The translations under genes were made by a program, and so were the position numbers. A stretch of 64,000 nt of DNA from contig NZ_AP025739.1 in assembly GCF_003574315.2 (NCBI RefSeq), positions 1,116,001 to 1,180,000 on the forward strand. Direction: 5' to 3'. The notes under the pieces were generated by a model that saw nothing but the letters and a program-made list of their open reading frames with translations, did no database searches and was not told the DNA's origin. Source of the stretch: Capsulimonas corticalis. GTDB lineage: Bacteria; Armatimonadota; Armatimonadia; Armatimonadales; Capsulimonadaceae. Below, one piece after another: positions 5,524 to 25,218 of this stretch (its first letter is position 1; every line of letters begins with the position of its first letter).

Positions 5524-8500
5524 ATGTCTAAACCTGTTCTGTCGAAACTTCGCAGCGCCGCTCCCGTCTGCCTTTTGCTGGGCGGAGCCGCCGTCGCCGC
5601 CACGATGGCGTCCGGCCAGTCCCCGCAGGACCCGCGCTACGCCGCGCCACAGCGCGCGTACTCGGACCGAGATCCGCGCACGCCCAGCATGGCGCCCACG
5701 GACCCGCAAGTCATCCCGGCGGCGCCGGCCGACGGAGCCGCTGCGAACGACCCGACGCAGCCCGAACGCCGAGCCCAGCGCGTCCGCCCGCAGCCGGCGG
5801 CTCCCGACAACCCGCTGGTGATGGTCAATCCGGAAAAGACGACAGGCAATCCCACGATCTACTACGACCGCGACGGGAAGCAAAAAACCACCAATCCCAT
5901 CGCGCCGGACCGAACCGACAAAGACTACCGGATTCAGCCGGAAGCGCCGCAGCCCAATCAAAGCAAGCAGCAGCGCCTTCCCCTGTTCGGATATAATTTC
6001 TTCCAGCCCGCGCGCCAGCTGATCACCGCGCGCCGCAGCTTCCTGCAGCAGCGATACGCCGCTCCCGCCAGCGCGAACGCGAATCGCCCCGGAGTCGCCG
6101 GCCCCGTCAGCCGCCGTCCCAATATCGGCGCCAATGGAAATCCGAACCCCGCCTTCGGCGGAAACCGCCCGCTGGACACCCAGAACGATCCGTTCGGGCT
6201 GATCGGCAATCCACCGCAGCTGAACGGCTATGGCAATGGTTACGGCGCGACGCCGAACGCCCCGTACGCGCTGAACGGCCCGGGCGCCGGCGGCAATTAT
6301 GGACAGCAAAGCGGCGTTCCGGGCCAATACCCCTCAGGGCAATACGATCCTCGCGCCGCGCAAGGCCAGTACGACCCCAACACCGGGCAGAGCTACGGCG
6401 CCGACCAGTCCGCCCCCAACCTCTATGGACGCGATACAAACGGCGACCAGCAGGACTGGCGAACGGGGGCGAGTTCCGACGCAGCGCCCGACAACGGTTC
6501 GACGCAAGATTCCCAGGGGAAAGCCGCCGCGCGAAATCGCGCTCCGAAGGATCCGTACGCCAATGAGCCGGCGAACCAGTTCCAGGATTCCAGCTCGCGC
6601 GCCTACGAAGACGGCTTGAAGCCCTACCCCGCCGGCACATACTATCCGCCCAAGCACGCCGCCGCCAGCTCCCTCGGAAGCCGGGGCGGTCTCGCTCCCT
6701 CAAGCGATCCGTACGCGCAGAATAACGGCGCTTATGGAAACCGGGGATCGTTCTACGACCCATCTCTCAATCCCAATGGGACCGGTCTGCCCTATGGATC
6801 CACGCCGGGCGGCGACGCTTACGGCGGCGCCTATGGCGATGGAACGGGCGTCGGCGGCAATAGCGCGCGCTCGGAAGAGAATCAGTTCTACGGAAACGCA
6901 TCGGGCGCGGACCAGAGTTTGACCGGCGATTCGTCCTCCAATTCGTCCGCAGGCGCGGTGGGCGGACGACCGAACACACCCGGCGATCTGAGCCGGTACA
7001 GCGATGACTCGGTCAACGCCTTCAACCAGATCTCCGACCCGCTGGACCAGCTTTACCGCAACGTCACGGCGTCCGCCCCGGCCAACTACCAGCTCTCCGG
7101 CGGCGACATCCTGACGATCCGCTACTGGACGCCAACACAGGCGTCCCGCGAGTTCTCGCGCACGGTGGACGCACAGGGCGCGGTCACGCTGGAAGGCATC
7201 GGCCGCCTGGTGGTTCGCGGACAAACGCTCGCGCAGGCGGAAAACACGCTGCGCCATCGTCTGGCCGGATACTATAAGGGCGCCGATGTCTCCGTGACGC
7301 TGCGGGAGCTGCGGACCATTCCAGTGACCGTCGGGGGAGAATCCTTCGCGCCGGGCACCTACACCGTCCCCGCCGTCTCGACCGTGTTCAATATCCTCTA
7401 CGCCGCCGGCGGCCCGACCGCCGACGGCTCCCTACGCGGCATCGAGATCCGCCGCCAGGGCAAGCTGATCGGAACATTCGACTTCTACTCGTTCATCAAC
7501 GGCAAGACGCCCGCGCCGGACGTTGCGCTGCAATCGGGCGACTTGATCTACATCCCGCCGCGTATCTCGCGCGTGATCGTCAAGGGCGAAGTGCGGCAGC
7601 CCGCGATCTTCGAGCTGAAGCCTGACGAGCGATTGGACGACGCCCTGCGCTACGCCGGCGGCGTCAAGCCCTCGGGCGTGGATCAGCGCGTGCAGGTCAG
7701 CACCGTCGTTCCCGGCGCGGAGCATGTGCTGCGCGATGTCAATGTCAAGAAAGTTACGGAAGTCAAAGCCGTGCCGTTGTACGATGGCGACGAAGTCGAG
7801 ATCTTCTCCGTGCGCAGCGTATTGGCGAACCGCGTGACTGTCGAAGGCGCGGTCGACCAGCCCGGCGACTACGCCCTGCAAAACGGCATGCATGTTTCCG
7901 ACCTGCTGGAGCGGGCTCGCGGCCCTCTTTACAACGCTTATCTGAGCCGCGCCGATCTGTACCGGTACAACTCGGACAATACGCTGACGCTCATCCCGGT
8001 GGATGTGGAAAAAGCGCTCGCTCACGATCCGACAGCCGACGTCGCGCTGACCCGCTGGGACCGCTTGAAGCTCTACTCCCGCCAGGAAGTCTCGTGGACC
8101 GGCCAGCGCGCCGTCACCATACGCGGCGCCGTGCAGCGGCCAGGGATCTACTACCGCAGCGACAACATGAGCGTCCGCGACCTGCTGCTCGCCGCCGGCG
8201 GAACTCTGCCGGAAGCGTACCTGGGACGGTCCGCCCTGCTGCATCAGCACAGCGACGGCACGTTCGCCTACGATTATGTCAACTTGGAGACGCTGCTGGC
8301 CGGCGACGCCACGCAGGATGTCAAGGTTCAGGACAACGACGTGCTCGCCGTTTACAAGATCGGCGAAGCGCAGTTCGAGCCGAACCACGTCGTGATTGTC
8401 CGCGGCGAAGTCGTGGCGCCGGGCACCTATCCGCGCGGCGAAGGCATGCGGCTGAGCGACGCGCTCAAGCTTGCGGGCGGCTTCAAGCCGAACGCCGGCA

Positions 8501-9507
8501 CGCAGGTGATCGTGACGCACGCCCACAAGATCGGCGATCCGCCGAACGCGACGCTGACCACGAGCACCGCCGTCTACGATAATGAGCGCCAGACCGTCAC
8601 GGACGGCGACCTCGTGCTGACGGATGGCGACGTGATCGCCGTCCAGGGCATCGGCGGCATCAAGGACCATGTCGGCGTCATCACCGTGAAGGGCGCGGTC
8701 AACCATCCAGGCCCGATCACGCTCACCAAGCAGCTTCGCCTGAGCGATGTCCTGCGCGAAGTCGGCGGCCTGCGGCCCGAGGCGTTCCCGGAAGGCGCCG
8801 AGTTCACGCGCGATCCGGAAGTCCTGGAGACCGCCGGACAGCGCAGCCTGACCAGCGTCATCATTCGATTGAACGATCTGCTCAACCAGAGCGCCTACAA
8901 GCGCGAACAGGCGAAATCGGACATCGAGCGCATCAAGGCGGCCGATACGGCGACGGGCAATTCGGCGATCGCGATTCCCGGCATCACCGGCGCCGCGACG
9001 CCCAGCGCCACCGCCACCGCCGTCGCCACTCGCCTGTCGCAGCGAGACCTGGTCACGCCCAGCCGCCTGCTCTCCGATGACGACCTGCAATCGAACGGCA
9101 ACATCGCTGTGAACCTGCCGGAAGCCATGCGGAAACCTGGCGGCAGCGAGGATATCCTGCTGGTAGATGGCGATACGATCACCATTCCCGAGCAGCCGAC
9201 CACGATCCAGGTCGTGGGCGCGGTCTTCAATTCGCGCAGCGTTCTGTACAAGCCCGGCGCGCCCATCTCCTACTACGTGGAGCAGGCGGGCGGCTTCGCT
9301 CCGGACTCGGCGAACAAGCAGATCGAGATCATCCACGCCGGCGGCGGCCTGATCCCGGCCGACAAGGTTCGCACACTGCGCCCCGGCGACGTCGTCCTCG
9401 TGCCGACGCGCGTTCTGGCGGAGAAGATCAGCAGAAACAGCAACGTATTCAACGATATCTTCAAGAATATCCTGAGCACGGCGCTGATCTTCAAGCTGCT
9501 GCGGTAA
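5524..9507 (+). CDS. Giant polysaccharide export protein with seven SLBB domains (Wza/OPX-like)
   Basis: A 1327-residue exported protein, several times longer than classic Wza (about 380). A signal peptide (hydrophobic LLLGGAAVAATMASG) is followed by about 480 residues rich in Gly, Asn, Pro, Gln, Tyr and Ser, probably disordered. A poly-export domain starts near residue 515 (YQLSGGDILTIRYW). After it I count seven SLBB-type repeats, each with a strand such as VIVKGEVRQP, VTVEGAVDQPG or VVIVRGEVVAPGTY followed by a LxDALxxAGG helix. The C-terminus ends in a short hydrophobic stretch. It probably forms the outer-membrane channel for the polysaccharide made by the downstream genes. The Shine-Dalgarno (AAGGA) is about 12 bases away, so the start is less certain. 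Confidence 0.85.
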   Translation: MSKPVLSKLRSAAPVCLLLGGAAVAATMASGQSPQDPRYAAPQRAYSDRDPRTPSMAPTDPQVIPAAPADGAAANDPTQPERRAQRVRPQPAAPDNPLVMVNPEKTTGNPTIYYDRDGKQKTTNPIAPDRTDKDYRIQPEAPQPNQSKQQRLPLFGYNFFQPARQLITARRSFLQQRYAAPASANANRPGVAGPVSRRPNIGANGNPNPAFGGNRPLDTQNDPFGLIGNPPQLNGYGNGYGATPNAPYALNGPGAGGNYGQQSGVPGQYPSGQYDPRAAQGQYDPNTGQSYGADQSAPNLYGRDTNGDQQDWRTGASSDAAPDNGSTQDSQGKAAARNRAPKDPYANEPANQFQDSSSRAYEDGLKPYPAGTYYPPKHAAASSLGSRGGLAPSSDPYAQNNGAYGNRGSFYDPSLNPNGTGLPYGSTPGGDAYGGAYGDGTGVGGNSARSEENQFYGNASGADQSLTGDSSSNSSAGAVGGRPNTPGDLSRYSDDSVNAFNQISDPLDQLYRNVTASAPANYQLSGGDILTIRYWTPTQASREFSRTVDAQGAVTLEGIGRLVVRGQTLAQAENTLRHRLAGYYKGADVSVTLRELRTIPVTVGGESFAPGTYTVPAVSTVFNILYAAGGPTADGSLRGIEIRRQGKLIGTFDFYSFINGKTPAPDVALQSGDLIYIPPRISRVIVKGEVRQPAIFELKPDERLDDALRYAGGVKPSGVDQRVQVSTVVPGAEHVLRDVNVKKVTEVKAVPLYDGDEVEIFSVRSVLANRVTVEGAVDQPGDYALQNGMHVSDLLERARGPLYNAYLSRADLYRYNSDNTLTLIPVDVEKALAHDPTADVALTRWDRLKLYSRQEVSWTGQRAVTIRGAVQRPGIYYRSDNMSVRDLLLAAGGTLPEAYLGRSALLHQHSDGTFAYDYVNLETLLAGDATQDVKVQDNDVLAVYKIGEAQFEPNHVVIVRGEVVAPGTYPRGEGMRLSDALKLAGGFKPNAGTQVIVTHAHKIGDPPNATLTTSTAVYDNERQTVTDGDLVLTDGDVIAVQGIGGIKDHVGVITVKGAVNHPGPITLTKQLRLSDVLREVGGLRPEAFPEGAEFTRDPEVLETAGQRSLTSVIIRLNDLLNQSAYKREQAKSDIERIKAADTATGNSAIAIPGITGAATPSATATAVATRLSQRDLVTPSRLLSDDDLQSNGNIAVNLPEAMRKPGGSEDILLVDGDTITIPEQPTTIQVVGAVFNSRSVLYKPGAPISYYVEQAGGFAPDSANKQIEIIHAGGGLIPADKVRTLRPGDVVLVPTRVLAEKISRNSNVFNDIFKNILSTALIFKLLR

Positions 9508-9512
9508 CCACG

Positions 9513-10142
9513 ATGATCATTCTCAGCCACCGCGGTTACTGGAAAGCCACGGAAGAGAAAAATACGGAGACGGCTTTTCTCCGCTCGTTTCGCCTGGGCT
9601 TCGGAACGGAAACGGACGTGCGGGATCACGATGGATCTCTGGTGATTTCGCACGACCCTCCGACCTCCGCCGCGCTATCGCTGGATCGTTTCCTGGAAAT
9701 TTACCGAGAAGAGGGCGCCGGCCTACCGCTGGCGCTCAACATCAAAGCAGACGGATTGCAGGCCGCGCTCAAGGGCGTCCTCGCGCGCTTTCAAGTCACG
9801 AACTATTTCACGTTCGACATGTCCCTGCCGGATATGCTCCATTATTTCGTTCAGAATATCCCCGTACTCACCCGGCAAAGCGAGTACGAGCCACAGCCTC
9901 TCTGCTACGAACAGGCGGACGGCGTATGGCTCGATTGTTTTCAGGGAGATTGGATCGACGAGCAAACTGTGTCGGGCCACCTCGACGCCGGTAAGCGAGT
10001 TTGTATCGTCTCTCCGGATCTGCATCGCCGGCCGCACGAAGCGTTCTGGGAGACGATGGCAGGCTGGGAAACGCGCCGGAGCAATCGGCTTCTGCTATGC
10101 ACGGACTTCCCGGAAGACGCGCGCGCCCGCTTCCAGGAATAA
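9513..10142 (+). CDS. Glycerophosphodiester phosphodiesterase-like protein
   Basis: This 209-residue protein has the N-terminal GDPD signature: SHRGYW, KNTETAF, an ETDVRD acidic motif and DGSLVISHDPP. Together these form the His, Glu/Asp metal and phosphate site of the PI-PLC-like TIM barrel. It is shorter than GlpQ (about 250 or more) and has no signal peptide, so it is cytoplasmic. It starts 5 bases after the export gene and is followed by a HAD phosphatase and nucleotidyltransferases. I infer a role in making or trimming a phosphodiester-linked substituent of the polysaccharide rather than in lipid catabolism. Confidence 0.72.
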   Translation: MIILSHRGYWKATEEKNTETAFLRSFRLGFGTETDVRDHDGSLVISHDPPTSAALSLDRFLEIYREEGAGLPLALNIKADGLQAALKGVLARFQVTNYFTFDMSLPDMLHYFVQNIPVLTRQSEYEPQPLCYEQADGVWLDCFQGDWIDEQTVSGHLDAGKRVCIVSPDLHRRPHEAFWETMAGWETRRSNRLLLCTDFPEDARARFQE

Positions 10143-10147
10143 ACGTT

Positions 10148-10783
10148 ATGGACAAGATTAAGGCAGTCATTTTCGATATGGATGGAGTGCTCATCGACGC
10201 GAAGGATTGGCACTACGACGCTCTGAACCGCGCGCTCTCCATGTTCGGATACCATATCAGCCGCTACGACCATTTGATCACCTACGATGGATTGCCGACG
10301 ATGAGCAAGCTGGAGATGCTCACGATGGAGCATGGGCTTCCGAGGTCACTGCACCGGTTTCTCAATACTCTCAAGCAGATCTACACCATGGAGATCGTAC
10401 ACGCTCGATGCAAGCCCGTCTTCCAGCATGAGTACGCGCTGTCGAATTTGAAAGCGGCGGGTTATCAGCTCGCGGTCGCCTCAAACTCCGTGCGTAACAG
10501 CGTCGAAGTGATGATGGAAAAAAGTAATTTAGCGCAGTATCTCGATCTGCTGCTCAGCAATCAAGACGTCGTGAAAGGGAAACCAGATCCAGAGATTTAT
10601 CTGAAGACGATGGACCGTCTCGGCAGGAAACCTCAGGAGTGCCTGGTGGTCGAGGATAATGAGCACGGCATCCGGTCGGCGACCGCCGCCGGCGCGCATG
10701 TCCTTGTGGTCAAAACAGTCCATGATGTTACGCTGGCGAACGTCACGCGCGCGATTCGCAAAGCGGAAGGAGAAACGGCGTGA
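10148..10783 (+). CDS. HAD-superfamily phosphatase (beta-phosphoglucomutase-like)
   Basis: A 211-residue HAD hydrolase with motif I FDMDGVLID, motif II VASNS, the lysine motif GKPDPEIY and motif III VVEDNEHGI. The helical cap lies at residues about 15-80. The DxDGVLID nucleophile and cap type match phosphosugar phosphatases and mutases. The start ATG at 10148 lies 5 bases after the preceding stop. The gene overlaps the next one by four bases (GTGA), so translation is probably coupled. It likely dephosphorylates a sugar or polyol phosphate in building a nucleotide-activated precursor; the substrate is not predictable. Confidence 0.82.
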   Translation: MDKIKAVIFDMDGVLIDAKDWHYDALNRALSMFGYHISRYDHLITYDGLPTMSKLEMLTMEHGLPRSLHRFLNTLKQIYTMEIVHARCKPVFQHEYALSNLKAAGYQLAVASNSVRNSVEVMMEKSNLAQYLDLLLSNQDVVKGKPDPEIYLKTMDRLGRKPQECLVVEDNEHGIRSATAAGAHVLVVKTVHDVTLANVTRAIRKAEGETA

Positions 10784-11523
10784 ATGTTCTTCTCCTGATG
10801 GCCGGCTCCAGCGACGCATTCAAAGACGCCGGTTACCTGTATCCCAAAAATCTGGTGGAAATCGACGGGCTGCCGCTGATCCAGCGCGTGATGGACAGTT
10901 TCGCGCCGCTGCGGCAAACGGATTCTCAGATGATCGGCCTAGTGCGCCGGGAAGAAAACGAGCACTATCATACGGGAGACGTCCTGCGCCTGCTGGATCC
11001 GCCGGCGACGATTCTGACTGTCCCATCGGAGACTGCCGGAGCCGCATGCACCGCGCTGCTTGCGATCGAACAGATCAACAACGATGAACCGCTGCTCATC
11101 GCGAACGGAGATCAGATCCTGACGGCCGACCTTCCGGCAATTGTGGATGATTTTCGGAATCGTGGCTTGGACGGCGGGATCGTCGTCTTCGAAGCCGTCC
11201 ACCCGCGCTGGTCGTACGTGCAGTGCGACGCCGATGGATATGTCATTGAAACAGCGGAGAAGCGGCCGATCAGCAATATGGCGACGGCCGGCGTGTATTA
11301 CTTCGCTCGCGGCGCCGATTTCGTCTGGGCGGCGATGGAGATGATTAAGAAAGACGCGCACGTCGAAGGCCGTTTCTTCATCTGCCCAAGCTATAACGAG
11401 CTGATTTTGCGCCAGGCCAAGATCGGCGTCAGCAAAATTCCGCGGAAGAGTTATTTCTCGCTCACCAATCCGCAGGGTGTACAGTCTTACGAGGAACATC
11501 TGCGCGAATCGCGGGAGCACTGA
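10780..11523 (+). CDS. Nucleotidyltransferase-like protein (variant active site)
   Basis: A 247-residue protein of the sugar nucleotidyltransferase fold. The N-terminus LLLMAGSSDAFKDAGYLYPK corresponds to the usual GxGxRF...PKP loop, but the loop glycines and arginine are altered, so activity is uncertain. A nucleotide-binding Asp is probable in IANGDQIL. The C-terminal half (ATAGVYYF, FICPSYNELI) is paralogous to the gene at 11859 (ATVGIYNF, YVAPAYNELI). A GTG start overlaps the HAD gene stop and has AAGGAG seven bases upstream. It may be a partner or an evolved second activity of the canonical enzyme at 11859. Confidence 0.72.
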   Translation: MNVLLLMAGSSDAFKDAGYLYPKNLVEIDGLPLIQRVMDSFAPLRQTDSQMIGLVRREENEHYHTGDVLRLLDPPATILTVPSETAGAACTALLAIEQINNDEPLLIANGDQILTADLPAIVDDFRNRGLDGGIVVFEAVHPRWSYVQCDADGYVIETAEKRPISNMATAGVYYFARGADFVWAAMEMIKKDAHVEGRFFICPSYNELILRQAKIGVSKIPRKSYFSLTNPQGVQSYEEHLRESREH

Positions 11524-11530
11524 CCACAAC

Positions 11531-11866
11531 ATGCGTCAAGAGAAACTGTCGGCGATGGTCAAGGGATGGTTTGTCGGAGATTTTGAGCCGTCTCTCTATC
11601 ATACGGGCGATGTCGAAGTCGCGGTAAAGCATTACCAGGCTGGGGACGCCGAAGAGTGGCACTATCACAAAGTGGCGACGGAGCTTACCGTGGTTGTATC
11701 CGGTGAGGTGGAGATGGCGGGGAAACGCTTTCGCGAAGGAGATATCGTCGTGATTGAGCCCGGCGAAGGAACGGCGTTCCGCGCAATCACCGACGCCGTC
11801 AATGTCGTCGTCAAGCTCCCAGGCGCAAGCAACGACAAGTATCTCCAAGAGGATTCCCATGCTTAA
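11531..11866 (+). CDS. Small cupin-domain protein
   Basis: This 111-residue single cupin has the conserved metal-site pattern EEWHYHKVATE (His, His, Glu) and a second motif around GDIVVIEPGEG. The start at 11531 is chosen because it is the only ATG near the fold start; a GGGAG lies upstream. It overlaps the next gene by 8 bases. Small cupins in polysaccharide loci can be sugar isomerases or epimerases or binding proteins; the exact role is unknown. Its position between two nucleotidyltransferases suggests it acts on the same sugar or polyol intermediate. Confidence 0.78.
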   Translation: MRQEKLSAMVKGWFVGDFEPSLYHTGDVEVAVKHYQAGDAEEWHYHKVATELTVVVSGEVEMAGKRFREGDIVVIEPGEGTAFRAITDAVNVVVKLPGASNDKYLQEDSHA

Positions 11867-12608
11867 TATCGTCATCCCGATGGCCGGACGAGGCAGCCGC
11901 TTTCAAGAAGCGGGATTTACGCTTCCCAAACCATTGATCCCGGTTCTGGGAAAACCGATGATCGAGGTCGTGGTGAATAATCTGCGCCCCGCGCAGCCGC
12001 ATCGGTTCATTTTTCTCTGCCTTCAGGAGCATATCGATACGCTCGGAATCGGGGAATCGCTCAAGAAGCTTGTCCCGGACTCCATTATTACATCGGTCGA
12101 CCGCGTGACGGAAGGCGCGGCGTGTACAGTCCTGCTGGCGAAAGAGCATATCAATAGCGCCGACCCATTGATGATCGCTAATAGCGACCAGTGGGTAGAT
12201 ATCAATATTGACGATTATCTGGCAAAGCAAAACGAAGAACGAGCTGACGGCCTGATCATGACGATGTGGGCCGACGATCCAAAGTGGTCGTTCCTGCGTT
12301 TTGACGCCAGCGGCGCGCTCTGTGAAGTGGTGGAAAAGGAAGTCGTTTCCGAGGAAGCGACCGTTGGGATATATAATTTTCGTCATGGCTCCGAATTCGT
12401 CGCCGCCGCCGAATCGATGATCGCGAAAAATCTGCGTGTGAACAACGAATTTTATGTCGCCCCGGCTTATAACGAGCTAATTGAGGCGGGCAAGAAGATC
12501 GTTTACTACAATGTGGGAAAAGAAGCAGACGGCATGTACGGGCTCGGCATTCCCTCGGATCTGAGGAAATTCGAGCAGCTAGAGGTTGCGCGGCGCGCGA
12601 CGGCGTGA
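11859..12608 (+). CDS. Sugar-phosphate nucleotidyltransferase
   Basis: A 249-residue enzyme with the textbook N-terminal signature MAGRGSRFQEAGFTLPKPL, followed by LGKPMIEVV and an acidic motif in IANSDQW. It would transfer NMP from an NTP to a sugar-1-phosphate or related phosphate. Specificity cannot be told from sequence. The start ATG lies inside the end of the cupin gene (8-base overlap), indicating translational coupling. Together with the preceding four genes it forms a cassette probably making one activated precursor. Confidence 0.85.
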   Translation: MLNIVIPMAGRGSRFQEAGFTLPKPLIPVLGKPMIEVVVNNLRPAQPHRFIFLCLQEHIDTLGIGESLKKLVPDSIITSVDRVTEGAACTVLLAKEHINSADPLMIANSDQWVDINIDDYLAKQNEERADGLIMTMWADDPKWSFLRFDASGALCEVVEKEVVSEEATVGIYNFRHGSEFVAAAESMIAKNLRVNNEFYVAPAYNELIEAGKKIVYYNVGKEADGMYGLGIPSDLRKFEQLEVARRATA

Positions 12609-12639: not shown

Positions 12640-13485
12640 ATGACAACTATCCGTCCAGAAGCTAACGATTCGGTTCTTATCCTTCGTCCCGCGCAAAAGT
12701 GGCGCGCTCTGAACTTACGAGAAATTTGGCGTTTCCGCGATCTGGTGATGGCGCTGGCGAGCCGCGATGTCAAGCTGCGATACCGCCAGACAGCGCTTGG
12801 CGTCGCCTGGGTCGTCCTACAGCCGCTGATTGCCGCCGCGATCTTCGCCTTTGTATTTGGCCATGTCGCGAAGCTGAAAAGCGCCGGCGCGCCTTACTTT
12901 GCATTTGCGTTCGCCGGCATGCTCGCCTGGACCGCCTTTAACAACACACTCACCAAAGTCAGCGGGTCCCTGGTTCAGAACTCGCATCTGGTGTCCAAGA
13001 TCTTCTTTCCCAGACTCGTCCTGCCGATCTCCATGCTGCTGTCATCCGTCATCGACTTCGCCGTATCATTGGTCGTGATGGTGATTTTGATGGTGATTTA
13101 CGGGATCGCGCCCCATCTTCAAATATTGCTGACGCCGGTCTGGTTTCTACTGATTTTGCTCCTCTCGCTTGGCGTAGGCCTCATCGCCTCCGCCTTAATG
13201 GTGCCCTATCGAGACGTGCAGTATATCATTCCCGTGGCGACACAGTTTCTGCTCTACGCCAGCCCCGTCGCGTATGCGCTGGCGTCGGTCCCGGCGCGCT
13301 GGCAATCTCTCTACGGCCTCAACCCACTGGTGGGCCTTCTGGAAGGGTTTCGCTGGTCTCTTCTGGGAACGGCGGCGCCGGCCTGGCGGGAAGTGCTTTA
13401 CGCCGCGGCGTTCTCCCTGGTAATGTTCGTCTTAGGCGCGTATTATTTTAAGCACATGGAGCGGAGGTTTGCGGATGTCATCTAA
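12640..13485 (+). CDS. wzm: ABC-2 type polysaccharide exporter, permease subunit (Wzm-like)
   Basis: A 281-residue integral membrane protein with about six hydrophobic segments and the family sequence around RDVKLRYRQTALGVAWVVLQPL. This is the usual ABC2_membrane motif of O-antigen, teichoic-acid and capsule exporters. With the ATPase encoded next (11-base overlap) it would move lipid-linked glycan from the cytoplasm across the inner membrane. The length matches Wzm/TagG proteins. Confidence 0.9.
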   Translation: MTTIRPEANDSVLILRPAQKWRALNLREIWRFRDLVMALASRDVKLRYRQTALGVAWVVLQPLIAAAIFAFVFGHVAKLKSAGAPYFAFAFAGMLAWTAFNNTLTKVSGSLVQNSHLVSKIFFPRLVLPISMLLSSVIDFAVSLVVMVILMVIYGIAPHLQILLTPVWFLLILLLSLGVGLIASALMVPYRDVQYIIPVATQFLLYASPVAYALASVPARWQSLYGLNPLVGLLEGFRWSLLGTAAPAWREVLYAAAFSLVMFVLGAYYFKHMERRFADVI

Positions 13486-14716
13486 AGACTTCGCGATCTC
13501 TGTCGACAAGCTCAGCAAAGTTTACAAGATCGTACACAACGGCGCGAAACATACGACGGCCGCCGAGGCGCTCGCGTACCGAATCAAAAATCCTCTTTAC
13601 CGCCCCGAAAGCAAAAGCTTTTGGGCGTTGCGCGATATCTCGTTCGATGTGCGCCATGGGGATGTCGTCGGCGTGATCGGGCGCAACGGCGCCGGAAAAA
13701 GCACTCTCCTCAAAGTTCTTAGCCAAATCACCGAGCCCAGCGCCGGCGAGGTTCGGCTGCGGGGACGAGTGGGGAGCCTGCTGGAAGTAGGCACCGGATT
13801 CCACGCCGAACTGACGGGGCGCGAAAACATCTATCTCAACGGCGCGATCCTCGGCATGCGCCGCCGCGAGATTGACAAGCAGTTCGATTCGATTGTGGAG
13901 TTCGCGGAAGTCACTCAGTTTCTTGATACCCCGGTGAAGCGCTATAGCAGCGGCATGTATGTGCGTCTCGCCTTCGCCGTCGCGGCGCATCTGGAGACCG
14001 AAATTCTCATCATCGACGAAGTCCTCGCCGTGGGCGATGTCGAGTTTCAGAAAAAATGTCTCGGAAAGGTCGGGGAGGTGGCGAAGGCGGGCCGCACCGT
14101 GCTATTCGTCAGCCATAATATGGCGCCCATCAACGCCATGTGCAACGTCGGTATCGTGCTGGACGGCGGGCGCATTGATATGATGGGCGACGTGACCGAA
14201 TGCGTCAAGCGATATTTGATGAACGATCAGCAGACGCTTCAGGAAAAGGTCTTTACTCCTTCAGGAGGCGAGCTTTCTTTGGACCGCGCCGCCATCGGTC
14301 AGGATGGCCAAGACGATCAGTTGTGGACCTCTCGCCCAACCATCGTCGAAGTGGATATTACTTCCTCCTCCGACCTGCGGCCGGCCGATCTGATTTGCGG
14401 CTTCACGCTGCGCGACGCCTACGGAAACGACGCGTTCTCAACCTATTTCAACGACATGGCCGACTATGCTGGTAAAGAGAGCTTTCGCGGCAAGCATCGC
14501 CTGCGCTGCGAGATTCCCTCGCATTTCTTAAACGACGGAACGTACCGGATCGTCTTCAATATCGGCGTGGCGACGATCAAGCAATACACATCGGATGAGA
14601 TACACTTTCTAGAGTTCACGATCGCGAATATCGACGGGCTCGGGACGCGTCTCGGCGGTCGTCCACTGCGCCCCGGAGCGGTTCTCCCCTTGTTCCCATG
14701 GGATGTGATGGAATAA
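13475..14716 (+). CDS. wzt: ABC exporter ATPase with C-terminal glycan-binding domain (Wzt-like)
   Basis: A 413-residue protein: ATPase domain (residues about 1-245) with Walker A GRNGAGKSTLLK, signature YSSGMYVRLAFAVAAHL, Walker B ILIIDEVLAVGD and switch His VSHNM. A beta-rich C-terminal domain (about 275-400) resembles the Wzt C-terminal domain that recognises modified chain ends. The ATG at 13475 is preferred to a TTG two codons earlier because GGAGG is suitably placed. The presence of the extra domain suggests chain-end-dependent export as in E. coli O9a, so a terminal modification such as the cassette upstream may act as the export tag. Confidence 0.92.
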   Translation: MSSKDFAISVDKLSKVYKIVHNGAKHTTAAEALAYRIKNPLYRPESKSFWALRDISFDVRHGDVVGVIGRNGAGKSTLLKVLSQITEPSAGEVRLRGRVGSLLEVGTGFHAELTGRENIYLNGAILGMRRREIDKQFDSIVEFAEVTQFLDTPVKRYSSGMYVRLAFAVAAHLETEILIIDEVLAVGDVEFQKKCLGKVGEVAKAGRTVLFVSHNMAPINAMCNVGIVLDGGRIDMMGDVTECVKRYLMNDQQTLQEKVFTPSGGELSLDRAAIGQDGQDDQLWTSRPTIVEVDITSSSDLRPADLICGFTLRDAYGNDAFSTYFNDMADYAGKESFRGKHRLRCEIPSHFLNDGTYRIVFNIGVATIKQYTSDEIHFLEFTIANIDGLGTRLGGRPLRPGAVLPLFPWDVME

Positions 14717-14734: not shown

Positions 14735-15607
14735 TTGAAGATCTCCGTTTATATCCCTCTGTATAACGGAGGCGCATGGTGCCGAGAAGTTCCGTTACTT
14801 GATGGAGTCCACTACATCGCTTCCGACAACGGGTCCACGGATGAATCCGCAGAGATTTTAGAGGCGCGCGGCGTGACGGTCATCCGTCAGCCCGTGAGTT
14901 TAGGCCGTGTCGGCAACTGGCGTTTCTGCATCGCTCATTTTCAGGACAGCGGCGCGGATTGGATGAAGTGGATGTTCACGGGTGATAGGCTCCGTCCTGA
15001 CGCGGCGGATATCCTTCGCCGCGCCGCCGCCCAGTTTCCGGACGCACGCCAAATTATCTCGGAATTTGATATTGTGGAAGGGGATAACCGAACCCGTCAC
15101 TCCATGCTCCCAACGACGGCGCTTATCGAGCCGGCGCGGGCTATGCAGCTGGCGGCGCAGCTTGGGAATTGGTTTGGCTCCCCGATTGGATACGCGCTGC
15201 ATCGCGAAGCGCGTGTTGAAGAGTGTGATTTTGGAAGCCTGCCCTATGTCGCGGACTATCAATTCGCGATGAATATCGCCGCCCGTCATCCAACACTTTA
15301 TCTGGCGGAAAACATCGGCGATTTCGTCGTCGACGCGCGCCGATATTACAAAACGCAATCAGAGAGCCAGCAAACCGCCGTTCAAAACGCTTGGATGATG
15401 TGGCAATCCGCCGAGCGTTTCCATGAATTGACCGGGGATCGGACGGAATATGAGCGCCTGGCGCGAAGAATTGAAACCGAAGTCGCCGGCGAGATCTTTG
15501 ATCGCATGATGCGCTCGCCCGTTGCCGGCGATTATCTGGATCGGACGAGCTACCGAGCAATCGCCTCGCTGTTCGTCAAAAAGCTTCGCCGTCGGCGGCG
15601 AAAGTAA
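14735..15607 (+). CDS. GT2-like glycosyltransferase
   Basis: This 290-residue protein starts with KISVYIPLYNGGAWCREV and has ASDNGSTDESAEIL, the GT2 nucleotide-sugar binding region, though the acidic metal motif is only loosely matched (MFTGDRLRPD). It begins with TTG preceded by GAGGAG. No membrane segments are evident. It follows the ABC exporter ATPase by 18 bases and is likely one of the chain-assembly transferases. Donor and acceptor are unknown. Confidence 0.75.
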   Translation: MKISVYIPLYNGGAWCREVPLLDGVHYIASDNGSTDESAEILEARGVTVIRQPVSLGRVGNWRFCIAHFQDSGADWMKWMFTGDRLRPDAADILRRAAAQFPDARQIISEFDIVEGDNRTRHSMLPTTALIEPARAMQLAAQLGNWFGSPIGYALHREARVEECDFGSLPYVADYQFAMNIAARHPTLYLAENIGDFVVDARRYYKTQSESQQTAVQNAWMMWQSAERFHELTGDRTEYERLARRIETEVAGEIFDRMMRSPVAGDYLDRTSYRAIASLFVKKLRRRRRK

Positions 15608-15612
15608 AACTT

Positions 15613-16677
15613 ATGCGAGTTGCAATACAAAATCCGAATCTGGCGCTCGATCAATCCCGAAATTTCAACGGCTACGATTTCGAGTTTCTACGCCAATTCA
15701 AACCGATCATCTATGTTCCTGATCTCCGTGGCGTTCCGCGCCGTTACAAAGCGCTGCTTCAGCTGGGCTGGAAACCTCAGGAAATCCGTTTCGCGGTCGG
15801 ACCTCGGCAATTAAACCATATGGCCGATGTACTCGTATGCTTTGCGGGAACACCTTACGACCTTCGAAACAAGCCGCCACGCGACTTTCACGGTCTCAAA
15901 GTCTTTCACGTCATGGACTATGTCTTTCGGGCGGAGGAAAGCCATCAGATACTCGCCGACTCTGGCGTTCAGTATGTCATGGGCTACACGGACCATGGCA
16001 AATACTGTCCATTCTTTCAAAAGTATTACCCCTCATTTTGCGGCAAAGTTATCTCCGTGCCGTTCGGATACGGCGCCCGATTTGAAAACAAGCTTCCATA
16101 TGCCGACCGTACGCCCAAAGTTATCGCTCTCGGCTCTGTCAATCCTGTGGACGACCCGGCCGTGCCGGACCGAGCGATGCTAAAGGAATATATCGATTTT
16201 TATGCGAACGTGCGCTGGACACATCAATGGCGCCGTATCCTCGCGGAAAACGAAGAGAATCTCGCGAACATTATGGATTCTCAACTTCCGCATTTTCCAG
16301 AAACCAAAAACCCGGATTATGACGCCGTCGCGATGATGAACCAGTATCGGATGTTCGCCAATGACGAAGGCCTGATGGAGTTTCCACCCGCGCGCACCTT
16401 TGAGGGTACGGCCGCCGGATGCGTCATGGTAAGCTCCGACCACGCAAGTTACGGCGATTACGGATTTCTGGACGGCGTCAACTGCGTTATGCACCGCCGC
16501 CACGACCTCTCTGACTTCCAGGAGAAGGTCCGGTACTATATCGACCATCCAGACAAGCTCGCCCAGATCAGTCAAAACAGCACAGAGATGGTCCGTACTC
16601 GTTATTCGCATCCGCAGATCGCGAGCGATCTGCACGAGCATCTTCGGGAGCTATGGGGCGCCTCCACGACGTCCTAG
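15613..16677 (+). CDS. CgeB-like glycosyltransferase family protein
   Basis: A 354-residue protein with a GT-B-like C-terminal half: [20 protein letters not shown], the [10 protein letters not shown] stretch and a final helix-rich segment beginning [11 protein letters not shown]. This matches the pattern of the CgeB-type glycosyltransferase C-terminal domain. The N-terminal half has no motif I can name. It starts 5 bases after the previous gene. A role in polysaccharide assembly is inferred from context. Confidence 0.65.
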
Positions 16678-16691
16678 CCGCGAACACGCAT

Positions 16692-18224
16692 ATGACACGA
16701 ATCACATGGCTGCTTCCTGTCCGCAACGGCATGCCCTATCTGCCGAAGACACTGGAATCAATCGCCAATCAAACTTACCATGATTGGCGCATCCTGGCCT
16801 GGGACAATGGTTCGACGGATGGGACTCTAGAGGAATTGCGGCGCTGGATCCCAGATCGTCTTCCCGGTAAAATCGTCTCTGACAGACCGCTTTCTTTAGG
16901 CGCATGTCTCGCGGCGATGGTGGACGAATGCGACACGGAGTTGTGCGCGCGCATTGATGCGGACGATATCAACTTCCCGGAGCGACTGGAGCGTCAGATC
17001 GCATTTCTGGACGCGCACCCCGATGTTTCGGTCGTGGGGTCAGGATACGAAAAAATCGATATGGCGGGAAGGATCCTGGAAGGACACCCGGCGCTTCCCA
17101 GCAGCCACCAGGACATTGTTGTGACCATGCTGGCGGAAAACGCGATCGCGCACCCCACGGTGCTGTTCCGGAGAAACGCCGTCATTGACGCAGGGAACTA
17201 TGCAGATCTGAAACCGATCGAAGACTATGAACTTTGGAGCCGAATGGCTTGCAGGCGACTTCTGGCGAATCTGCCTGAGCCGCTCATCAAATATCGGGTG
17301 CATCGACAAAGCGTTACACAGCAGGCGATAAATTCCGGGCATCTCTCGAAGGAGATTTCCATACACTGCGCACGGAGCGCGGAAGCGCTTTATGGCTGCT
17401 CGGAAACCGATCTCAGACTGCTTCGGGCTAGCAAACATCCTCTGGCTCTGGCTCCACTGATTCGTATCGCTCGGCGCCTTGGAGAGAGACATAGCGCGGA
17501 AAAGGCGACTCTGCTTCGGGATCCGATATTTCTCACGGTTGCGGCGCGGCTGATTGCGCCAACGGATTTTATCAGTTCCATCACGCTGGGCGCGCTCGAT
17601 CCTCGTGTTGGATGGAAGGGCGGCTTGAAAGCAGCCCTCGTTCGTCTTTTCATGCTGGTATGGAGTAAATTTCCAATGCTGCATGGCTGGCTCGCGATAT
17701 ATAGGTTCCAAGCATGGAGACGAACACTCGCCAAGCAAGGAACGGTAATCGATCCAGCGACTCAAATTATCGCCACTAAGCAGGCCTACAGCCGTATTGA
17801 GATTGGCCATGGATCAAATCTGGAGCGCGATGTCTCTCTTTGGATTTCCGACGACGACGGCGCTCGGGCGCGACTGACCCTGGGGAACGATGTCTACGTC
17901 GGCAGGAATACATTTCTCGGGGTTTATCAGCCGATCTCTATTGGAGCCGACACAATGATCGGCGCGTATTCGTATATTATTTCCGCGAGCCACCGTTTCG
18001 ATCGGCGCGATACGCCAATACGCGAACAGGGATACTCTGGAGCTCCCATCGTCATCGAAGAGGATGTGTGGATTGGGACTCATGTCACCATCCTGCCTGG
18101 AGTCACCATTGGCCGGGGAGCGATTGTCGGAGCGGGAAGCATGGTCAATAAAGACATCCCGCCTTATGAGATTTGGGGGGGCGTACCGGCGCGCTTCATC
18201 AAGGAACGCCCAGGCTCGGCCTGA
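16692..18224 (+). CDS. GT2 glycosyltransferase fused to hexapeptide acyltransferase
   Basis: This 510-residue protein is a two-enzyme fusion. Residues about 1-230 are a GT2 domain ([57 protein letters not shown]). After a connecting helical segment, residues about 350-505 form a left-handed beta-helix acyltransferase ([56 protein letters not shown]). Such domains usually add acetyl groups to sugars. The natural reading is coupled sugar transfer and acylation. The start at 16692 lies 14 bases after the previous stop; an in-frame ATG at 16653 would overlap that gene. Confidence 0.88.
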
Positions 18225-21711: not shown

Positions 21712-22761
21712 ATGAAGAAAACCGCTCTTATCTCCGGTGTTACGGGCCAGGACGGCTCGTATCTCGCCGAGCTATTGCTGGCGAAAGATTACGAAGTCCA
21801 CGGGATCATTCGACGATCCAGCAGCTTCAACACCGGCAGGATCGAGCATCTGTATGTCGATCCGCACACGCTCGGCGCGCGTCTTTTCCTGCATTACGGC
21901 GACCTCGCGGACTCGTCCAACCTGCGTCATCTGGTCGAGAAAGTGCGTCCGGACGAAGTCTATAACCTCGGGGCTCAGTCCCATGTCAAAGTCTCTTTTG
22001 AAGAGCCCGAATATACCGTCGATGTGGACGCGGTCGGAACGCTGCGCTTTTTAGAGGCGATTCGCGATTACCGGGACCGGACCGGACACGATGTCCGTTT
22101 CTATCAGGCGAGCAGTTCGGAGATGTTCGGCGCCGCGCCTCCACCGCAGGGCGAAAGCACCCCGTTCCATCCGCGCAGTCCATACGCCTGCGCCAAAGTT
22201 TACAGTTATTGGCAGACAGTCAACTATCGCGAGAGCTACAGCATGTTCGCCTGCAACGGCATTCTGTTCAACCATGAAAGCGAGCGCCGGGGCGAAACGT
22301 TCGTGACGCGCAAGATCACACGCGCCGCCACTCGGATCAAGCTCGGCCTCCAGGACAAGCTCTATTTAGGCAATCTGAACGCGAAACGCGACTGGGGTTT
22401 CGCGGGAGACTATGTGGAGGCGATGTGGCGGATGCTGCAAGCAGACCAGCCGGACGACTATGTTGTCGCCACCGGGGAAGCCTACTCGGTGCAGGAGTTC
22501 GTGGACAAGACATTCGCTCTGCTGGATCTCGATCCCGCCAAATACGTCGAAGTCGACGAGCGTTATTTCCGGCCCGCGGAAGTCGACTATCTGCTCGGGG
22601 ACCCCTCTAAAGCGCGGGCGAAACTGGATTGGAAGCCTCTGGTGTCCTTTGACGCTTTAGTCGAGCGTATGGTGGAGCACGATCTTTCTCTCGCCCGCCG
22701 CGAAAAGACTCTTCTGGATTCCGGCCACAGCATCAGCGATCAAGCGAGGCAGCCCCGGTAA
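21712..22761 (+). CDS. gmd: GDP-mannose 4,6-dehydratase
   Basis: A 349-residue extended SDR enzyme converting GDP-D-mannose to GDP-4-keto-6-deoxymannose. The NADP-binding loop is [29 protein letters not shown] is the Gmd-specific stretch, and the catalytic residues are in [10 protein letters not shown] and [10 protein letters not shown]. It overlaps the next gene by a single base (TAATG), as usual for the gmd-fcl pair. It supplies the activated intermediate for GDP-fucose or a rhamnose-type sugar used by the neighbouring transferases. Confidence 0.96.
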
Positions 22762-23708
22762 TGGATCGAACCGCACGTATTTTTGTCGCCGGACATCGAG
22801 GTCTCGTAGGCTCAGCGATCGTACGCGCTTTGGAGCGCGCGGGGTTCGGCAATCTTCTTCTCAAATCCCGCACTGAGCTGGACTTGCAGAATGAGGCGGC
22901 GGTAACCGCGTTCTTCGAGAAAGAGCAGCCGGAGTATGTGTTTCTGGCGGCGGCGAAGGTCGGCGGGATCCTGGCGAACAGCACGCAGCCGGTCGAGTTC
23001 CTCACCGAGAATCTCCGCATCCAAAACAACGTAATCCTCGGAGCGCATCAAGGCGGGGCGCGCAAGCTGCTGTTTCTGGGCAGCTCCTGCATTTACCCAA
23101 AGTTCGCCCCTCAGCCGATCCACGAGAGTTCGCTTCTGACCGGCGCTCTGGAACCCACGAACGAAGCGTACGCGATCGCTAAGATCGCCGGCATTACGCT
23201 GTGCCGGTCGCTGGCGCAGGAGTACGGCGCAAACTTCCTCTCCGTCATGCCGACAAATCTTTATGGCCCCAATGACAATTTCGACTTGAAGACATCGCAT
23301 GTGCTCCCGGCGCTGATCCGAAAATGCCATGTCGCTTCGGTCACCAAATCCCCAAGCCTGGAGCTCTGGGGCACCGGTTCGCCGCGCCGCGAATTCCTGC
23401 ACGCCGACGACCTCGCCGAAGCCTGTGTGTTTCTGATGGAAAATTACGACAGTCCGGAGATTATCAACATCGGCGTGGGCGAAGATATCTCGATCCTGGA
23501 GCTAGCGCGCCTGGTGCAGTCGGTGGTTGGCTATGAAGGCGAGATCGTCTTTGACGCCTCCAAGCCCGATGGGACGCCGCGCAAACTTCTGGATGTCTCC
23601 AAACTGCATGGGCTAGGCTGGCGGCATCGCATTTCGCTGGAAAAAGGAATTACTGCGGTTTACCAACAGGCGGATAAAGGCGCCTGGGTTTCAGCTATTC
23701 GCGTTTGA
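22761..23708 (+). CDS. fcl: GDP-L-fucose synthase
   Basis: This 315-residue epimerase/reductase has the NADPH loop [16 protein letters not shown], the catalytic [15 protein letters not shown] and the Tyr/Lys pair [11 protein letters not shown]. It converts the Gmd product to GDP-L-fucose. It overlaps gmd at TAATG, so the two are co-translated. The pair shows that the polysaccharide very probably contains fucose. Confidence 0.96.
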
Positions 23709-23762: not shown

Positions 23763-25208
23763 ATGAGCAAGCTTCACTCTACCTCCGAGCCGTTCGCGGA
23801 CAACCTCGCCGCCGATATTGACAGAGGCAACACGCCCGCGCCGGCAAAAAACCGGCTGCTGCCGCTGGGTCTCGCGGTCGTCGCAGGCGTTGTCGCCTTT
23901 GGCGTCGCTTCCGTGCTTCCCAAGCAATATCGCACCGAAAGCACGCTTTATTTCCCTTCCGCCGGTGATTCCGGAGCGGGGTCGATCATCAGCGCGCTGA
24001 ATGGTTTTGGCGGAGGAGGAGTAGGCGATAAGGGCGGAAGCGTCGGCTTGCTGGGAGGCATGATCAGTTCCCCCCAAGTCGCCAGCGGCCCGAACACTTC
24101 CATTGCGATCCTCACAAGCGTCCGCTGCCAAACGCAGGTGGCGCAAATATGTCATCTCCAAGAGCACTACCACACGACAAGAATGCCGATTGTGCTGAAG
24201 ATGCTCACAGCCGCGTCAACATTCGCCGTGAACAAAAATGGACTCCTTCAGGTCGAAATCGCCGATCAAGACCCGCACGTTGCGGCGGCGATTAACCAGG
24301 CCTACCTGGATACGCTTAAGTCGATCGCCACGGACCTGAGCGTAGACGTATCGCGGCGAAACCGCATCTTTATTGAAGAGCGCTTGAAGACACAGCGCGC
24401 GAAGCTGACAGCCCAGGAAAGCTTATATTCGGAGATGCAAAAATCTCCCACACAGGCGCTGACCGGAACTGCCGGCTCTGATAAGCTGGTGTCCGCATAT
24501 GTCGAGCTTCAGACCCAGGCCAATCAGGCGGCGATTGATTTGAGCGCGGTCGACGCGCGGATCCGCTGGCAAACAGGAGTGGCGAAGGCGGCGTCCGGCC
24601 CCAGCCTCGACGCCGCGTCCGTCATTCCCAAAGTCCAGCCGTCAGTCGAACGCCTGAGAGGTTTGGAATCCCGTTTCAGCATCGCCCAGGCGACTCTGGG
24701 GCCGGACAACCCAGACTATCGATACCTCCAGATCCAAGTCGAACTGGCGCGCAGGGAAGTGCGCTCCGAAGTTGAGCGGGAGCTCAACCAGACACAATCC
24801 GGTATCGCCCCGGAGGTGTCCACTCTTTACGCCACGCGGGCGGCCCTGCAAGCGCAGCACGATGGTCTCAATCGATCACTGACCCAGCTCAAAGATAAGG
24901 TCGTCGCGATCCCCGTCACAAAGATGCGGGAAGCGCACATGACGGCTGAGGTCGAGACGGGCGAGAAGCTTGTCGCGATGCTGGAGACCGAGGCGGAGCG
25001 GGCGCGTTTAGCCGAAGCCCGAGACAGCACCACATTCGAAGTCATCGATCCTCCCACGCCGCCGGACGAACCGTTTGCTCCTCGACGCGCATTCATCGCG
25101 GGGATCGCGGCGCTGGCGGGGTTCCTGCTGGGCCTCGCCTGGCTGGCGGCCAAATCCCTTGGCAAAGACGGGCTCATGGGCATGGACGCCAAGCACGATT
25201 CTCTGTGA
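23763..25208 (+). CDS. Wzz-type polysaccharide co-polymerase (chain-length determinant)
   Basis: A 481-residue protein with an N-terminal transmembrane helix (about 32-52), the post-helix motif KQYRTESTLYFPS, a long helical and coiled-coil periplasmic region and a second transmembrane helix near the C-terminus (about 440-462, FIAGIAALAGFLLGLAWLAA). No Walker motifs follow, so it is a Wzz-like protein without a fused tyrosine kinase. It would set chain length together with the Wzy-like protein encoded next. It starts 54 bases after fcl. Confidence 0.88.
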   Translation: MSKLHSTSEPFADNLAADIDRGNTPAPAKNRLLPLGLAVVAGVVAFGVASVLPKQYRTESTLYFPSAGDSGAGSIISALNGFGGGGVGDKGGSVGLLGGMISSPQVASGPNTSIAILTSVRCQTQVAQICHLQEHYHTTRMPIVLKMLTAASTFAVNKNGLLQVEIADQDPHVAAAINQAYLDTLKSIATDLSVDVSRRNRIFIEERLKTQRAKLTAQESLYSEMQKSPTQALTGTAGSDKLVSAYVELQTQANQAAIDLSAVDARIRWQTGVAKAASGPSLDAASVIPKVQPSVERLRGLESRFSIAQATLGPDNPDYRYLQIQVELARREVRSEVERELNQTQSGIAPEVSTLYATRAALQAQHDGLNRSLTQLKDKVVAIPVTKMREAHMTAEVETGEKLVAMLETEAERARLAEARDSTTFEVIDPPTPPDEPFAPRRAFIAGIAALAGFLLGLAWLAAKSLGKDGLMGMDAKHDSL

Positions 25209-25218
25209 AAGCGCCCAC

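Follow-up and report, generated by a model that had tools for sequence, protein, structure and literature searches.

In GMPPA/GMPPB, GalF/GalU and the large and small subunits of ADP-glucose pyrophosphorylase, an active nucleotidyltransferase has a paralogue at its side by which it is regulated or shaped. A comparable combination occurs in EcbF/BcbF-type capsule modules, which encode an EcbF/BcbF phosphatase (TIGR01689), a protein of about 520 amino acids in which a loop-less nucleotidyltransferase (NT)-like N-terminal region is joined to an APH kinase region, and a BcbE-type NT. Here, we analyse a five-gene cassette at positions 9513 to 12608 of a 64,000-nucleotide stretch of the Capsulimonas corticalis genome (contig NZ_AP025739.1, positions 1,116,001 to 1,180,000; hereafter the window). 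The cassette encodes a GDPD-fold phosphodiesterase, a HAD-type hydrolase or phosphomutase, a single-domain cupin and two paralogous nucleotidyltransferases, NT1 and NT2. We consider it probable that these genes form a self-contained, horizontally moving module that makes one nucleoside diphosphate-activated compound (NDP-X) for surface glycans, and that NT1 serves in it as a non-catalytic partner of NT2.

The EcbF/BcbF module can be regarded as a sister of this cassette, since its NT belongs to the same family and it includes, like the cassette, a small HAD and an additional NT domain that lacks the loop. The two differ in the phosphatase, which is HAD-III-like in the sister module but of type IA in the cassette, in the kinase that stands in place of the GDPD, in the lack of a cupin and in the fusion of the pseudo-NT to the kinase, whereas NT1 is a free protein. 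No kinase is present among the five cassette proteins, and the 25 of 41 NCBIfam matches of the HAD that were listed do not include TIGR01689. Because the sister module also has one, a loop-less second NT domain beside an active NT appears to be a recurrent arrangement. The kinase standing in place of the GDPD suggests, by analogy, that both enzymes deliver the phosphomonoester, each in its own module. The likeness of NT1/NT2 to GMPPA/GMPPB, GalF/GalU and the ADP-glucose pyrophosphorylase subunits is one of arrangement. The loop-less partner would offer a clear example of a dead nucleotidyltransferase with a presumably regulatory role.

All five open reading frames (ORFs) proposed for this segment in the initial annotation, a phosphodiesterase, a phosphatase-type HAD, a cupin and two nucleotidyltransferases, are present on the forward strand. 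The gene for the compact GDPD protein (9513 to 10142; 209 amino acids, signal peptide not evident) is separated by 5 bp from that of the HAD (10148 to 10783; 211 amino acids; HAD_2, 1.1e-35), which falls into the beta-phosphoglucomutase-like group of HAD-IA hydrolases and phosphomutases. NT1 (10780 to 11523), the paralogue with a degenerate nucleoside triphosphate (NTP) loop, has a GTG start and is followed after 7 bp by the cupin gene (11531 to 11866; 111 amino acids; Cupin_2, 3.6e-7), whose product is isomerase/epimerase-like by fold. NT2 (11859 to 12608; NTP_transferase, 6.2e-13) completes the set. Three overlapping junctions had been claimed; with the starts used here there are two, of 4 bp between HAD and NT1 and of 8 bp between cupin and NT2.

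To our sample of relatives we assigned the best 80 of 197 NT2 relatives in a species-genome collection (numbered with the prefix L), which were found through NT2 and are hence biased towards it. Their NT2 proteins are 57-71% identical to that of the window and come from Cyanobacteriota, Planctomycetota, Pseudomonadota, Bacillota, Bacteroidota, Verrucomicrobiota, Spirochaetota, Acidobacteriota, Myxococcota and other phyla. All five families occur in 65 of the 80 loci, in 57 of these inside 3.8 kb, and thus the same five-gene set recurs outside the window across many phyla. The gene orders in the 65 loci are circularly permuted: GDPD-HAD-NT1-CUP-NT2 in 41, NT2-GDPD-HAD-NT1-CUP in 18, CUP-NT2-GDPD-HAD-NT1 in two and other orders in four. 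Eight of the 15 incomplete loci lie at a contig end (L037, L041, L042, L044, L057, L092, L103 and L112), and in two others (L078 and L106) an NT2-like variant occupies the place of NT1.

Plasmid and single-copy tests, which are less NT2-biased than the 80-locus set, gave a similarly coherent picture. Separate searches of 72,556 plasmid records with NT2, GDPD and HAD returned strong matches in the identical 24 records, and the next-best matches dropped to 33% identity for HAD and 31.6% for GDPD. Separate occurrence of the genes in relatives had been named as an argument against a unit; instead, in 20 whole genomes drawn from the 80-locus sample, the GDPD profile and the cupin profile each matched once and no more, always at the cassette (20 of 20). 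Divergence was correlated for all ten gene pairs over 63 loci (Mantel r 0.48-0.73; 0 of 999 permutations each), part of which arises because the hosts share ancestry. The HAD, cupin and nucleotidyltransferase domains belong to common families, which might favour a chance neighbourhood of carbohydrate genes, or else an operon for scavenging that has nothing to do with the polysaccharide. Co-occurrence in loci and plasmids, single-copy counts, correlated divergence and gene fusions all speak against this explanation; we reject a chance neighbourhood and leave the explanation as a whole only a negligible probability. By these genomic comparisons the five genes almost certainly form a real module, and the earlier idea that they work as one unit in surface-polysaccharide loci is supported. 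The spread of the module over about ten phyla, with some copies on plasmids and parts of it in phages, points to a common surface-glycan component.

NT1 and NT2 of the window are 34% identical, and the altered loop previously noticed in one of them is confirmed: NT1 reads GSSDAF where NT2 has GRGSRF. NT2 combines this GxGxRF loop with a PKPLI signature and matches PF00483 with 49.3 bits (cut-off 21.2), and its assignment to the nucleotidyltransferases uses the loop and the domain match alone. In an alignment of 84 NT2 and 65 NT1 sequences, NT2 retains G12 in 82/84, R14 in 82/84, K24 in 84/84 and D110 in 84/84, whereas NT1 keeps G12 in 0/65, R14 in 2/65, K24 in 39/65 and the metal-binding D110 in 47/65, and it lacks the GxGxRF loop of catalytic nucleotidyltransferases. 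The closest solved relative of both proteins is PDB 4evw, a Vibrio cholerae 'NDP-sugar pyrophosphorylase' (E 1e-17 to 3e-28), whose motif MAGMSSRF...PKYML follows the EcbF/BcbF-type pattern, unlike NT2. In a tree of 116 rows, obtained by a quick search with no bootstrap and containing long branches, NT1 stood opposite NT2 with a Shimodaira-Hasegawa-like approximate likelihood ratio (SH-aLRT) support of 98, and the NT1 half of an Azospirillum fusion and a variant clade fell on the NT1 side. The loops of this clade (GEGRQF, GKAVRF and GQAKQF) are intermediate between those of NT2 and NT1, and loop degeneration is graded, up to loop deletion.

The ratio of nonsynonymous to synonymous substitution rates (dN/dS) was 0.02-0.10 for NT1 (13 close pairs, of which 11 gave a finite value), similar to the 0.04-0.12 of NT2, by which we rejected NT1 as a decaying pseudogene. 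Sequence comparison places NT1 in one old clade from a single duplication, in which the NTP loop was lost nearly everywhere examined and which is under purifying selection. Such conservation could also be expected if NT1 and NT2 were two enzymes of different specificity making two activated compounds, and NT1 does retain T85, G87, E160-K161, P163-S165, A168 and G171, corresponding to the T-x-G-A, E-K, P-x-S and A-x-G pocket positions. However, loss of G12 in 65 of 65 and of R14 in 63 of 65 NT1 sequences, the incomplete retention of K24 and the metal Asp, and the graded decay seen in the GRQF, AVRF and AKQF variants make two enzymes improbable. Since the loop is degenerate across the whole family, NT1 more probably serves as a partner subunit than as an additional enzyme acting on a different substrate, and we regard it as the likely non-catalytic partner of NT2. 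NT1 and NT2 form a single polypeptide in Azospirillum and Rhizobium plasmids, and a C-terminal extension of about 110 amino acids is attached to NT2 in L051, L072 and L100 and to NT1 in L052, L079, L087 and L088; both features point to a shared complex. By eye, this extension looks like an NTF2/SnoaL domain. In the Azospirillum and Rhizobium plasmids, the NT1-NT2 fusion is followed by a third NT-like protein, which lacks the loop (L119:7747-8466 and L223:8126-8806).

The product of 9513 to 10142 appears to be a phosphodiesterase of the GDPD/PI-PLC superfamily, as judged from its motif, a weak sequence match to solved GDPDs and a predicted barrel. It carries the N-terminal motif HRGxW...N...ExDxRD...H, and residues H6, R7, N17, E33, D35, H47 and K78 are invariant or nearly so. 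Its AlphaFold model (mean predicted local distance difference test, pLDDT, 97.6) retrieved GDPDs in Foldseek with template modelling (TM) scores of 0.64-0.73. No Pfam model, PF03009 included, matched the protein at E 0.01, and five of 43 relatives matched PF03009. The third metal ligand of GDPDs, usually Glu, corresponds to an invariant Asn76 in this family. Thus, the protein has the TIM-barrel fold and the HR...N...E.D...H...K residues of the superfamily, and it lacks the PF03009 match and the third-ligand Glu.

The HAD has the DxD, Lys and E-D motifs of HAD-IA proteins, with D10, D12, K145, E169 and D170 invariant. It scores above the cut-off of TIGR01509 (68.1 bits versus 29.4) but below those of the beta-phosphoglucomutase (beta-PGM) equivalog/subfamily models TIGR02009 (118.2 versus 153.35) and TIGR01990 (94.6 versus 189.4), and its nearest solved relatives are 3e58, 3kbb, the MtlD phosphatase domain and beta-PGM. 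The cupin shows the HxH...E pattern of Cupin_2 with invariant H44, H46 and E51, a putative three-ligand metal site. Its motif 2 region, P77-G...F83 in the window protein, contains no His, the residue that usually provides the fourth metal ligand of Cupin_2 cupins. An AlphaFold2 model of the cupin (pLDDT 94.5) gave generic fold matches, with archaeal phosphomannose isomerase and KdgF among them, and its sequence profile matched no solved sequence.

Based on these assignments, a likely dedicated surface-glycan precursor pathway can be sketched. The GDPD-fold enzyme would release X-phosphate from a phosphodiester, taking over the job of the kinase in EcbF/BcbF modules, the HAD would move or trim a phosphate, and the cupin might act on the same path as a metal-dependent isomerase or epimerase. 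NT2 would then couple X-phosphate with an NTP, with NT1 bound to it as a structural or ligand-sensing non-catalytic subunit. Finally, a transferase encoded in the locus would put X on the glycan, possibly of the WavE family in many relatives and another one in the window. The cassette had been proposed to make and activate a phosphorylated compound, which remains a fair reading given the nucleotidyltransferase signature kept by NT2; its extension to an export-signal cap, discussed below, is not supported. A phosphodiester bond in the product is possible.

The same enzymes could be arranged differently: the cupin would isomerise a ketose phosphate, the HAD as a phosphomutase would deliver a (beta-)sugar-1-phosphate, NT2/NT1 would convert it to an NDP-sugar, and the GDPD would merely repair cyclic or misrouted phosphodiesters. 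The place of the HAD in the beta-PGM-like group, a solved beta-PGM-like protein as its nearest relative and the archaeal phosphomannose isomerases among the cupin fold matches fit this order of steps. On the other hand, the cupin matches are generic, and the phosphate-binding Arg and the hinge Thr of Lactococcus lactis beta-PGM are replaced by Thr51 and Ala18 in the window HAD. Moreover, 17 of the 24 plasmid records have no cupin yet keep the GDPD, which would be odd for a mere repair enzyme, and we regard the isomerase-mutase order as unlikely.

Several observations weigh against our proposal of one NDP-X module with an NT2-NT1 complex. A member is truly absent from five of the 80 loci with the site in sight (L043, L049, L059, L063 and L099), the cupin is found in seven of the 24 plasmid records, so NT1 and cupin are not universal, and three genomes of the window's phylum have HAD-NT2-GDPD with NT1 and cupin absent from the stretch fetched. 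Among the viral contigs described below, those with HAD-NT2-cupin carry NT1 in one of 80 only, and Scandinavium and Acetobacter pasteurianus hold only eroded NT1 remnants. Because NT1 is absent or eroded in these same-phylum, viral and remnant cases, it is not strictly needed for all NT2s. In NT2 itself, the position of the second metal ligand, usually the Asp of W-x-D-x-G in sugar-phosphate nucleotidyltransferases, reads M-Y-G-L-G, with G228 in 82/84 sequences; catalysis by NT2 is for this reason only inferred, and another residue may serve. The HAD matches phosphatases and mutases alike, the two being indistinguishable by sequence, and the presumed transferase WavE is seen in only 38 of the 80 loci and not in the window genome.

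In the initial annotation, the cassette was thought to produce a phosphodiester-linked terminal cap, read as an export signal by the C-terminal domain of Wzt. An ABC exporter does lie directly downstream on the forward strand, with a Wzm-like permease (12640 to 13485; ABC2_membrane, 9.5e-23) and a Wzt-like ATPase (13469 to 14716; ABC_tran, 1.7e-21) whose genes overlap by 17 bp and which we count as neighbours outside the module, and an ABC exporter also adjoins the cassette in a Pseudomonas plasmid, an Enterobacteriaceae plasmid and some genome loci. The predicted chain-end-binding domain of this ATPase, however, reached 17.4 bits with Wzt_C, below the cut-off of 30.4. Both Wzm and Wzt were found in at least 11 of the 65 full-cassette loci, and in at least six of 43 with full flanks, these counts being lower bounds from the fetched flanks and from hidden Markov models seeded from the window. 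On a Ruegeria plasmid, the cassette is accompanied by WavE, a flippase and a protein of the O-antigen ligase type, and cyanophages carry related gene sets with the exporter absent from the stretches read. Export guided by the chain terminus, as with O9a-type Wzt, uses a chain-terminating kinase/methyltransferase, neither of which is among the five cassette proteins. We have therefore set aside an export-signal cap as the general function on the exporter content of the 65 loci and the flippase and phage contexts, and regard it as improbable.

A candidate user of the product is the WavE family (PF07507), found in 38 of the 80 genome loci with a profile that, like that of a second protein, 'C10', was built from these loci; C10 occurs in 12 and either one in 43. 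In nine genomes chosen for WavE in the locus, all 11 PF07507 matches lay within the cassette locus (nine of nine genomes), and ten genomes chosen for its absence from the locus had none. The twentieth genome (L107) has three matches on the same contig, about 36-54 kb from the cassette. Two WavE queries retrieved eight plasmid records, in a search that missed an annotated Ruegeria WavE and was thus not exhaustive; an NT of the NT2 family was encoded at most 6.7 kb away in all eight, five with the cassette and three with the sister module. This WavE-nucleotidyltransferase link gives WavE a predicted donor. PF07507 had no match in the window genome, where the control matched no genome either, yet the same search was positive in 10 of 20 other genomes; nor did WavE match in 291 genomes of the window's phylum, where the control matched nowhere. 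Because WavE was not found in the window genome, the user there is perhaps another transferase, and the two glycosyltransferase-like genes at 14735-15607 and 15613-16677 (forward strand; as a pair, 14735 to 16677: Glycos_transf_2 23.1 bits with a cut-off of 23.3, Glyco_trans_1_2 46.4 bits) are possible candidates. C10 proteins (L069:11061-12836, L046:11092-12873 and relatives) have about 400-700 amino acids, are encoded close to the cassette in 12 of the 80 bacterial loci and in 27 of the 80 viral ones, and matched no Pfam family and no PDB entry. Naming the substrate failed, as the cupin matches are generic, the HAD matches ambiguous and the WavE and C10 profiles matched no solved structure.

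WavE also shares a cluster with the EcbF/BcbF module in Escherichia coli O78, Caballeronia, Citrobacter and Legionella, where the Legionella kinase has no NT domain. The sister module is present in the O-antigen clusters of E. coli O78 (H10407, L225:5798-11728, with WavE) and O20 (L224:8854-11566). With Kosakonia and Pantoea cassettes as queries, no close copy of the five-gene cassette was found in E. coli genomes, so that a serotype of established structure is tied only to the kinase-type sister module. The O78 repeat unit is reported to contain only mannose and N-acetylglucosamine; a published O78 structure was not found in the literature searched. If this repeat is right, the NT, pseudo-NT/kinase and WavE of the O78 cluster lack an assigned product, and a labile component may have been overlooked. 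With WavE, a related nucleotidyltransferase and a pseudo-NT/kinase in a long-known serotype, O78 is a place where the chemistry can be sought. It is tempting to speculate, if with considerable doubt, that bacterial and phage surface glycans contain a new NDP-X-derived component made without a kinase through a phosphodiesterase, a dead NT paralogue and WavE-type transferases, and that kinase-made donors of the same family, acid-labile or phosphodiester-bound, have been missed in O78/O20 O antigens. The literature searched, including passages of PMC4732683, gave no description of the five-gene cassette, its product or pathway; subscription journals were thinly covered, and absence from print is not shown by this.

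Related gene sets also occur in reduced or rearranged form. Clusters with NT-NT fusions on E. coli plasmid NZ_CP145712 and on a Hirschia baltica plasmid resemble the cassette in having a GDPD homologue (98-102 bits), a HAD and two NT domains, but differ in that the GxGxR loop is intact in both halves, a PRK-type kinase and a class II aldolase are present and the cupin is absent. NT-NT fusions with both loops intact and with GDPD and glycosyltransferase family 2 (GT2) genes nearby were seen in L137-L139, from the phylum of the window, and in L118 and L122; among these, the PRK-type kinase and class II aldolase accompany the two plasmid fusions.

Relatives of the cupin are encoded on 478 stretches in IMG/VR, and the best 80 of these (L140-L219) contain NT2 in 55, HAD in 49, a GDPD match in 54 and NT1 in one (L146). 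The GDPD matches are weak (17-32 bits) in all except L146. Because only L146 has NT1 among the best 80 loci, NT1 appears to belong to the bacterial form of the module. HAD-NT2-cupin sets are common on these contigs, which reach up to 494 kb. HAD and NT2 are fused in cyanophages DSL-LC03 (L123:1797-3182) and S-CAM9 (L124:5341-6726), and each fusion lies next to a further HAD and a short ORF resembling GDPD. PHROGs families match GDPD, NT and cupin, all without functional annotation, as well as HAD.

C. corticalis probably acquired the cassette horizontally, since few genomes of its phylum match the HAD and the NT relatives lie in other phyla. Only six of 291 genomes of the phylum encode the HAD at E <=1e-40, the other five with values of 1e-47 to 1e-62 compared to 1e-110 in the window genome, and in the tree the window NT1 and NT2 lie closest to Verrucomicrobiota, Cyanobacteriota and Thermodesulfobacteriota. 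The host genome is a single contig of 7.65 Mb. Directly upstream of the cassette lies the gene of a Wza-like SLBB polysaccharide export protein (5524 to 9507, forward strand; Poly_export, 1.7e-14; SLBB, 1.7e-55), which stops 5 bp ahead of the GDPD start. Further genes of the locus encode glycosyltransferases, a GDP-mannose 4,6-dehydratase and a second epimerase/dehydratase (21712-23708). A Wzy_C protein (25075-26748) and a GNVR chain-length-type protein share the locus with the ABC exporter (12640-14716). Because Wzm/Wzt, GNVR and Wzy_C proteins occur together, the window appears from its gene content to be a surface-polysaccharide locus mixing parts of ABC- and Wzy-type systems. At 16653-18224, a glycosyltransferase family 2 domain is fused to a hexapeptide acyltransferase, and an ORF at 33365-34570 contains a long Thr-Thr-Gly-Gly repeat and has a hydrophobic C-terminal end.

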